From Alphaproteobacteria bacterium (GTDB lineage: Bacteria > Pseudomonadota > Alphaproteobacteria > Rs-D84): a stretch of 36,655 nt of DNA. Below the pieces are notes generated by a model. It was not told the origin of the DNA, did not search any database, and saw only the letters and a program-made list of their open reading frames with translations. The stretch covers positions 1 to 36,655 of the forward strand of contig JAFZUT010000011.1 of assembly GCA_017618175.1 (NCBI GenBank), in the 5' to 3' direction. Position 1 is the stretch's first letter, and each line of letters opens with the position of its first letter. Shown here one piece after another: positions 8,762-35,914 of the stretch. A program made the position numbers and the translations under genes.

Positions 8762-8837
8762 GGGGTTGTAGCTCAGTTGGTAGAGCACTTGCATGGCATG
8801 CAAGGGGTCGTCGGTTCAAGTCCGATCAGCTCCACCA
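8762..8837 (+). tRNA. tRNA-Ala (anticodon GGC)
   Basis: A complete cloverleaf of 76 nt. The acceptor GGGGTTG pairs with CAGCTCC (with G-U pairs), the D-arm is GCTC...GAGC, the anticodon stem CTTGC/GCAAG encloses the loop ATGGCAT (anticodon GGC), and the T-arm is GTCGG-TTCAAGT-CCGAT. CCA is encoded. It is followed directly by a palindromic segment and a GIY-YIG gene. Confidence 0.97.
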
Positions 8838-8946
8838 TCCGTCTTCGCTTCGCTCCGTCGCGATTGGTACAATCGGGCGGGGCGATGTGATTTTAATCAC
8901 GCGAAGCGGATGTCGCGACGGAGTGCGCCCTGCGCACGCAGACGGA
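8838..8946. repeat. Imperfect inverted repeat between tRNA-Ala and the GIY-YIG gene
   Basis: The left arm 8838-8863 (ending CTCCGTCGCGA) faces the right arm 8913-8946 (beginning TCGCGACGGAG and ending GACGGA). The right arm carries about 8 extra bases that form their own hairpin (GTGCG...CGCAC, 8923-8937). The spacer contains a second palindrome, GTGATT-TT-AATCAC, at 8887-8900. No coding sequence is supported here. It directly abuts the tRNA CCA end and resembles a small mobile or REP-like structure. Confidence 0.75.
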
Positions 8947-8954
8947 CAAAAATT

Positions 8955-9194
8955 ATGTTTTACGTATACATTTTACAGAGTATAAATTTTCCAGATAATT
9001 TTTATATCGGTTATACCGATGATTTGAAAAGGCGCATAAAACAGCATAACTATGATCATGTTGGGCACACAGACAAGTATAAACCATGGCGTATAAAAGA
9101 TTATTTTGCAATTGATGACGAACAAAAGGCAAAAGAATTTGAAAAATACCTAAAATCCCAATGTGGTCGTGAATTTATCAAGAAACACTTTTGA
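8955..9194 (+). CDS. GIY-YIG family nuclease (short, UvrC-N/YhbQ-like)
   Basis: A 79-residue protein with the GIY-YIG fold signature: YVYILQS at residues 3-9, then FYIGYTDDLKRRIKQHN at about 16-32 with the catalytic tyrosines and arginine. The glutamate is likely E60 (KAKEFEKYLK). I chose the ATG at 8955; reading further upstream runs back through the palindrome and the tRNA and is not credible. Ribosome site is weak. Stand-alone copies of this family are common and patchily distributed behind tRNA genes in many bacteria, and their role is unclear. The flanking inverted repeat suggests it came with a mobile cassette. Confidence 0.85.
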   Translation: MFYVYILQSINFPDNFYIGYTDDLKRRIKQHNYDHVGHTDKYKPWRIKDYFAIDDEQKAKEFEKYLKSQCGREFIKKHF

Positions 9195-21037: not shown

Positions 21038-21051
21038 TTTCTGGCGCACCC
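21038..21051. repeat. 14-bp direct copy of the tRNA-Arg 3' end
   Basis: TTTCTGGCGCACCC occurs here and again at 21228-21241, where it is the 3' end and first trailer bases of tRNA-Arg (minus strand). The 180 bp between the copies contain no gene. Confidence 0.8.
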
Positions 21052-21170
21052 GAACATTGCCTTGATAAACAATAAATAAAATCAAAAAAATCTCCATCTG
21101 TCGATTTTTTAAGATTTTCTTAATTGTTCATCTGCGTATTGTGTGCTGCGCCGATACCGGGCTCGCACAC

Positions 21171-21249
21171 ATCCTTCTGGGTGCGCTGCCACAGAAATTA
21201 AAAACCGGCCAAACGGTCGGTTTTGAATTTCTGGCGCACCCAGAAGGAT
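21171..21249. repeat. Long fold-back: tRNA-Arg 3' part, terminator and inverted copy
   Basis: Arm 21215-21249 includes the last 18 nt of tRNA-Arg and its trailer. Arm 21171-21210 is its inverted copy with two mismatches and five inserted bases. The centre is the hairpin AAAACCGGCC-AAAC-GGTCGGTTTT at 21201-21224, which on the minus strand acts as the tRNA terminator (U-rich tail). Transcription past the hairpin would make RNA complementary to the tRNA 3' end. The same design is seen at tRNA-Gly. Confidence 0.85.
21201..21224 (-). terminator. Terminator of tRNA-Arg
   Basis: On the minus strand AAAACCGACC-GTTT-GGCCGGTTTTT forms a hairpin ending in a T tract, 8 nt after the tRNA CCA. Confidence 0.8.
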
Positions 21250-21308
21250 TCGAACCCTCAGTCTTCTGATCCGTAGTCAGACGCTTTATCCAGTTGAGCT
21301 ATGGGTGC
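21232..21308 (-). tRNA. tRNA-Arg (anticodon ACG)
   Basis: 77 nt including CCA. The acceptor is GCACCCA/TGGGTGC, the anticodon stem TCTGA/TCAGA encloses CTACGGA (anticodon ACG, presumably read as ICG), and the T-arm is GAGGG-TTCGAAT-CCTTC. The D-stem has one mismatch (GCTC against AAGC). Confidence 0.95.
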
Positions 21309-35624: not shown

Positions 35625-35701
35625 GCGAGCGTAGCTCAGTTGGCTAGAGCGCAACCTTGCCAAGGTTGAGGTCGAGGGTTCGAGCCCCTTTGCTCGCACC
35701 A
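35625..35701 (+). tRNA. tRNA-Gly (anticodon GCC)
   Basis: 77 nt with encoded CCA. Acceptor GCGAGCG/TGCTCGC, D-arm GCTC/GAGC, anticodon stem CAACC/GGTTG around TTGCCAA (anticodon GCC), T-arm GAGGG-TTCGAGC-CCCTT. A hairpin terminator follows at 35711-35733. Confidence 0.96.
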
Positions 35702-35764
35702 GATATTTTGGAACCACCCGAAAGGGTGGTTTCTTAAATATCTCGCGCAAAGGGGCGAGAACCC
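35676..35764. repeat. Long fold-back: tRNA-Gly 3' part, terminator and inverted copy
   Basis: Arm 35676-35719 starts in the T-arm of tRNA-Gly and runs through CCA and the trailer. Arm 35724-35764 is its inverted copy with a few mismatches and a 5-nt deletion. The central hairpin GAACCACCC-GAAA-GGGTGGTTTC is the tRNA terminator. The inverted match continues weakly towards the tRNA anticodon arm (35765-35777). Same plan as at tRNA-Arg. Confidence 0.85.
35711..35733 (+). terminator. Terminator hairpin of tRNA-Gly
   Basis: Stem AACCACCC/GGGTGGTT with loop GAAA; the T tract is short (TTC), so termination may be incomplete. Confidence 0.65.
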
Positions 35765-35803
35765 GCAGGGTTGCGAGGCGAGGTGGCGACGCCACCGAAG
35801 TAC

Positions 35804-35816
35804 TTTGCTCGCACCA
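35804..35816 (+). repeat. 13-bp direct copy of the tRNA-Gly 3' end
   Basis: TTTGCTCGCACCA is an exact copy of 35689-35701, the last 13 nt of tRNA-Gly. The 102 bp between the copies hold no gene. It resembles the direct repeats left by elements that insert at tRNA 3' ends. Confidence 0.85.
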
Positions 35817-35824
35817 AAAATTTT

Positions 35825-35849
35825 AAAAACCACCGTTAGGTGGTTTTTT
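35825..35849 (+). terminator. Second hairpin terminator behind the tRNA-Gly copy
   Basis: AAAAACCACC-GTTA-GGTGGTTTTTT. The stem resembles that of the terminator at 35711-35733 (ACCACC/GGTGGT), so it may be the original tRNA terminator displaced downstream. Confidence 0.85.
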
Positions 35850-35914
35850 GATTTTTGCGTCAAACGGGCGATAATTTTTTTATCAAAAACGCCAAAAATC
35901 GCTTGCACCAATCT

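Follow-up and report, generated by a model that had tools for sequence, protein, structure and literature searches.

REP-like repeat units bracketed by copies of tRNA 3′ ends in a genus of Alphaproteobacteria

Within the window (that is, the whole stretch of 36,655 nt analysed here), the tRNA-Gly(gcc) gene is followed by two terminator-like hairpins, between which lie an inverted copy of part of the tRNA, a small hairpin, a structured core and a direct copy of the tRNA 3′ end (Table 1). The core reads GCGAGGCGA-GGTGGC-GAC-GCCACC-GAAGTA. The inverted arms (35676–35696 and 35744–35764) are 21 nt in length and 86% complementary, with a gap of 47 nt, and this match was equalled in 2 of 5,000 Markov sequences. 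The direct copy is the 14-mer CTTTGCTCGCACCA, which occurs at 35688–35701 and 35803–35816 with a spacing of 115 bp and has no third occurrence in the whole window; the naive chance of such a 14-mer within 400 nt is ~1.5 × 10−6. The initial annotation had described an exact 13-bp copy of the tRNA-Gly 3′ end with its own terminator and a fold-back with arms of about 42 nt: the copy, its terminator and the fold-back were all found, but the copy is 14 bp long and the arms reach 42 nt only with the terminator stem included. Its proposal that the segment regenerates the tRNA end gained no support, as tRNA-Gly is intact and the downstream copy comprises only nt 63–76 plus a terminator.

Table 1. Positions of the tRNA-associated features in the window
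Feature	Position	Strand	Remark
tRNA-Ala(ggc)	8762–8837		long TCCGTC..GACGGAC fold-back directly after CCA, then GIY-YIG gene
Fold-back and GIY-YIG gene 3′ of tRNA-Ala	8838–9194		
ORF of small GIY-YIG nuclease gene	8955–9191		Pfam, E 6e-14
Exact 10-nt direct copy in tRNA-Arg(acg) unit	21042–21051	−	GGGTGCGCCA
Unit of same design 3′ of tRNA-Arg(acg)	21042–21231	−	
16-nt inverted copy in tRNA-Arg(acg) unit	21171–21186	−	
tRNA-Arg(acg)	21232–21308	−	
tRNA-Gly(gcc)	35625–35701	+	intact, with encoded CCA; copies derive from its T-arm and 3′ end
First terminator-like hairpin of Gly unit	35702–35742	+	directly 3′ of CCA; A/T-rich outer stem
Inverted copy of tRNA-Gly T-arm/acceptor strand	35744–35764	+	GCAAAGGGGC exact at 35747–35756; T-loop part TC changed to GA
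Small hairpin AACCC-GCA-GGGTT	35760–35772	+	seen in some relatives only
Gly core GCGAGGCGAGG-hairpin-CCGAAGTA	35773–35802	+	inner stem 35782–35796 with compensatory changes between species
Direct copy of tRNA-Gly 3′ end (nt 63–76)	35803–35816	+	14 bp, exact
Second terminator-like hairpin of Gly unit	35817–35856	+	

The same layout had been claimed for another tRNA of the window, and it is borne out at tRNA-Arg(acg), which is followed by an inverted and an exact direct copy of its own sequence; the core of this unit is of another type (type C) and harbours the palindromic repeat ATGAACAATTA..TTATTGTTTATC. Genome-wide counts in the source genome were based on searches plus the tRNA-centred stretches from a tRNA family search. 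Eight of the 42 tRNA genes for which the downstream sequence sufficed (those for Gly, Gln, Pro and Ser, two for Met and two for Arg) repeat ≥10 nt of their own 3′ end in direct orientation no further than 300 nt downstream, versus a mean of 0.07 and a maximum of 2 after permutation of the tails between isotypes; the search for segments flanked by direct repeats of tRNA 3′ ends, as suggested in the initial annotation, was positive. For copies of at least 12 nt the numbers are 6 of 42 observed and 0 permuted, and the longest copies measure 21 nt, at Gln, and 19 nt, at Ser. The excess of inverted copies of at least 9 nt is statistically weaker than that of direct copies (3, against a mean of 0.36 and a maximum of 3 under permutation). 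A further family of repeats, GTGYCGCGGCGTAGC-hairpin-GCGAAGACGGAC, was seen in both orientations 3′ of many CCACCA-ending tRNAs of the source genome, at loci that include L009, L014, L015, L018, L024, L041 and L045 and are devoid of a direct tRNA-end copy. The repeat pattern GGCGTAG..GAAGACGG, of a diverged family, has only 3 exact matches in this genome.

The general plan of the units was derived by searching relatives with the tRNA-Arg and tRNA-Gln units of the source genome and scanning public genomes for a core motif. It can be written as A.B-inverted T-arm copy-GGTTCGA-structured core-B, where A.B is a tRNA gene split in the T-loop after TTCGA, and B is the 3′ part of the tRNA from about nt 59 plus the terminator. 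This layout was found 3′ of at least 14 tRNA species in a genus matching Candidatus Enterousia, a genus of reduced genomes in the order Rs-D84 (PMC12306168); among the matches listed from the scan, the named records are Candidatus Enterousia, the others being from gut Alphaproteobacteria. For type A, the commonest core type, 59 of the 88 listed matches to a core-only pattern lie no more than 130 nt downstream of a same-strand tRNA, with many tRNA species involved, and of the other matches among the 88, most belong to tandem arrays, lie at the edge of a locus or adjoin a displaced tRNA end; tandem arrays hold two or three units. An exact copy of the last 12 nt of the tRNA was found in 40 of the 59 tRNA-adjacent type A matches among those listed. 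Their most frequent extent is 20 nt counted back from A76, made up of nt 59–76 (18 nt) and a GA common to tRNA and core; the junction accordingly falls within the T-loop, behind TTCGA. In 34 of the 52 tabulated type A cores (counted from the table), the end of one and the same tRNA stands on both sides. Direct B copies are often exact while the inverted copies decay, the latter being often degenerate (own-tRNA score of 11.6 versus 9.5 for other isotypes).

The first hairpin of type A has the form GTAG-stem-CGTC and covaries, with 94.5% of cells paired and changes on both sides in 10 of 13 pairs, versus at most 45% in slid controls. The alignment was chosen by a pattern that fixes GGTTCGANAACAAGTAG, ACGGTT and GTAG and leaves CGTC and the stems free, so the conservation of the GGTTCGANAACAAGTAG and ACGGTT letters is partly by construction. 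The type A covariance model found matches in 10 of 13 genomes of the genus, at 0 to 15 per genome (10 in G001, 15 in G002 and none in G012, which is 97% complete), numbers far below those of classic REPs. In a class-wide draw of 289 genomes under stricter filters, type A was present in only two, both of the same genus, and none was found outside the genus in the Alphaproteobacteria searched. The model does not match the Gly unit, which thus shares the plan, not the type A core.

Similarity between type A cores is higher within a genome, at different tRNAs (mean 0.758, n=83), than between genomes at one and the same tRNA (0.707, n=53; P=0.0017, a rough value as the pairs are not independent). 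This pattern in the sequences points to spread of the cores within genomes; part of the similarity within genomes could reflect concerted evolution. At the orthologous tRNA-Gln, the core is of type A in G000, type B in G001 and types A and C in G002. Some type A cores are off tRNA ends, in intergenic mosaics of G001, G002 and G000, and mostly without the GGTTCGA box; this box therefore probably belongs to the target and not to the core. At one locus (L294), a core and a palindromic repeat lie between direct repeats of ~46 bp of non-tRNA sequence, so target duplication may be general. Two type A cores of G001 (L288 and L289) come right after a promoter-like stretch and a start codon and are trailed by (AC)n and a terminator, an arrangement resembling that of a separately transcribed unit. 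A tRNA-Gly(ccc) with its T-loop interrupted by a type A core (L132) was considered as a direct insertion and rejected, since an intact tRNA-Gly and a full unit lie ~900 bp downstream and homologous deletion is the simpler reading. An autonomous element at the contig-end copies of G002 was likewise rejected, intergenic repeats being all that was seen there.

The ORF upstream of tRNA-Gly is orthologous in the genomes compared, with no match listed for G006. The Gly unit is present in G009, G008, G001 (as two tandem copies), G002 and G006 and degenerate in G003, whereas the search for empty sites in relatives proposed in the initial annotation found the tRNA-Gly site empty, next to the orthologous upstream gene, in G004, G007, G010, G011 and G012. 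The genomes compared are separate species, so loss may account for some of the empty sites. The two terminators have the same sequence in G009, where a direct repeat of ~50 bp results. On a tree of the upstream protein from 10 genomes, one or two changes suffice to account for where the unit is present. Core bases outside the inner stem are almost invariant, although the neighbouring protein is only 60–81% identical between the same species, and covariation marks the inner stem, in which 94.8% of cells are paired (slid controls, at most 47%). Complementarity of the 3′ copy is missing at two loci, the first copy of G001 and that of G006. No Gly core was found beyond its own locus, apart from one tandem copy in G001. 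Given its presence in relatives and the one or two changes on the tree, the Gly unit is, on sequence comparison, old, vertically inherited within one clade and strongly conserved. The segment had been taken for a minimal tRNA-targeted insertion made by a process common to different tRNAs. A common process rather than chance is supported by the layout at at least 14 tRNA species, the empty sites, the shared cores joined to local tRNA ends and the grouping of cores by genome; a recent insertion at Gly is not, because the core is confined to a single locus, inherited and conserved in one clade.

An integrase or reverse transcriptase encoded elsewhere, which the initial annotation had suggested looking for, was not found in common among all unit-bearing genomes, beyond presumed XerC and XerD. 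Specifically, the unit-bearing G008, G009 and G010 have only two PF00589 matches each, which we take to be XerC and XerD, and reverse transcriptase (PF00078) is present in 5 of 13 genomes and in neither G001 nor G002, which have 10 and 15 type A matches. Y1 transposase (PF01797) was found in 0 of 13 genomes by a search that detects it in 5 of 14 controls. In G006, an island of ~7.2 kb (L118; G006:C8:82500-91500), flanked by tRNA-Gly on one side and by a 16-bp repeat of the tRNA 3′ end on the other, encodes a tyrosine integrase, T5orf172 and GIY-YIG proteins and a small protein with a weak, below-cutoff match to REP_ORF2-G2P; the Gly unit is outside the island, separated by it from tRNA-Gly, and several other units are directly beyond the ends of tRNA islands. 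In Rfam searches, only tRNAs scored above the gathering threshold, and a phage and plasmid search with the Gly unit gave no match. In viral contigs, matches to the core motif and to a 17-mer fell in unrelated coding-like sequence, and a stricter pattern gave none; none is credible.

A small GIY-YIG nuclease gene lies 3′ of tRNA-Ala(ggc) in the window (Table 1), and similar placements 3′ of tRNAs were seen in relatives (L308, L321, L322, L326 and L331). Of 14 short GIY-YIG frames in the genus, 4 start within 190 nt downstream of a tRNA on the same strand (Gln, Gln, Thr and Ala) and one follows a tRNA-Lys unit; a hairpin of the TCCGTC..GACGGAC type precedes most of the tRNA-adjacent short genes. 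Another of the 14 lies in L331 of G006 (1320–1853, oriented), where a copy of tRNA-Pro(ggg) breaks off within the T-loop, behind GGTTCG, and is followed by a hairpin, the GIY-YIG gene and an intact tRNA-Pro, with 77 bp duplicated. Their positions make these small nuclease genes a lead in the search for a candidate mobiliser. As a universal enzyme, GIY-YIG was rejected for now: G002, with 15 type A matches, has no short frame and a single match in a long UvrC-like frame, and genomes such as this one mean that GIY-YIG cannot be the sole enzyme today.

At a confidence of 0.55, we favour the reading that the Gly segment belongs to a family of very small, structured, REP-like repeats that are non-autonomous and lodge at the T-loop/3′ end of tRNA genes. 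Insertion would go with a partial duplication of the 3′ end of the target, with one inverted and one direct copy, so that an intact tRNA would stay upstream. In such a scheme the cores would move; a break or nick at the universal GGTTCGA box of the T-loop would start the event; hairpin-prone repair, with synthesis turning round at hairpins, would make the inverted and direct copies; and a trans-acting nuclease or transposase would be, or would have been, involved. The universality of the box would explain why many tRNA species are struck at the same nucleotide, and the Gly unit would be a long-standing member, with a short core peculiar to it and with vertical inheritance today. What speaks against this reading is that no insertion was seen between near-identical genomes, the relatives being separate species with empty sites that may in part be losses, that part of the core similarity within genomes could stem from concerted evolution, that the Gly core is single-locus with its presence explained by one or two changes on the tree, that some type A cores are away from tRNA ends, that inverted copies are often degenerate, and that no candidate enzyme is common to all unit-bearing genomes searched. 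Only tentatively do we consider that the units represent a new class of non-autonomous element that would land at GGTTCGA and rebuild the tRNA 3′ end and terminator by a fixed inverted-plus-direct duplication, possibly via small stand-alone GIY-YIG nucleases.

The conservation of the units would also be expected if they were structured RNAs of use to the host, read through from the tRNA and acting in 3′-end maturation, as a charging-like CCA minihelix or in tRNA-level regulation. Consistent with such a role are the near-invariant Gly core beside the more divergent protein, the compensatory changes that preserve the stems of both the type A and the Gly core, the B copies that are often exact despite decay of the inverted ones, and a predicted fold of the Gly unit in which GCGAG pairs with CTCGC before ACCA, as in the tRNA-Gly acceptor. 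We nevertheless regard a host function as unlikely: presence is patchy, with 0 to 15 type A matches per genome and none found in the 97% complete G012, core types are swapped at orthologous tRNAs, and the complementarity of the 3′ copy is gone at the two loci of G001 (first copy) and G006.

Two further explanations invoke site-specific recombination. The units might be remains of tRNA-integrating islands after internal deletion, with the direct copies as attL and attR; real islands do occur at these tRNAs, such as that of G006 with its tyrosine integrase, and several units adjoin island ends. Such an origin is nonetheless very unlikely, as the unit of G006 is outside its island and so seems older, independent deletions would hardly leave a single conserved and covarying core at 14 or more tRNA species, the Gly unit has no phage or plasmid match and no credible one in viral contigs, and an inverted copy is foreign to any att remnant. 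Alternatively, the inverted and direct tRNA copies could pair on a folded single strand and rebuild an attachment site that a tyrosine recombinase, possibly XerCD, would join to the tRNA. By analogy with known folded sites, exchange at core^B would yield exactly A.B-inverted-core-B, and the two copies pair in folded models of several units; but in many units the inverted copy has degenerated too far to serve as a recombinase site, no integron-type integrase was seen, and G008, G009 and G010 have only two integrase-family matches each, presumably XerC and XerD, so that we hold this route to be highly improbable.

The units are real and beyond chance, and are best read as REP-like repeats of a kind tied to tRNA ends; a literature search of open-licence papers returned no report of tRNA-end-bracketed REP-like units. 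They illustrate how repeats can settle at essential tRNA genes in a genome of <1 Mb and leave these genes intact. Among known systems, the folded sites of integron attC and CTX phage have imperfect inverted arms able to rebuild a recombination site on one strand; the arms are alike here, yet they match tRNA genes. Integrative elements that target tRNAs (islands, ICEs and satellites) likewise leave a direct tRNA 3′-end copy at the distal junction, and the T-loop is a known attachment place, for example of phage Ms6 (PMC1762012), whereas the units here are ~100–235 bp and gene-free, lack a universal integrase, and possess an inverted copy and a shared structured core. REPINs and their RAYT (Y1) REPtrons (PMC3116915) are also non-autonomous hairpins spreading within genomes, but no Y1_Tnp gene is present in the 13 genomes and the target-like duplications here are long. 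The nearest described class is the GTAG/CGTC-tagged REP superfamilies, including the Rickettsia palindromic elements, which are short, lineage-specific, multi-copy intergenic palindromes mostly 3′ of genes; CGTC-type palindromes prevail in Alphaproteobacteria and are without a dedicated transposase or a known mobilising enzyme (PMC3733652). With one universal, short and functionally constrained landing site and a readable duplication per insertion, the units would make the mobiliser question for these palindromes testable. The type A hairpin resembles them in that its two feet carry GTAG and CGTC, respectively; the hairpin foot of the Gly core has neither tag, so the Gly unit is not classed among them. 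Unlike those REPs, the units described here are placed at tRNA 3′ ends, within a partial inverted and direct duplication of the local tRNA end and with their junction in the T-loop.
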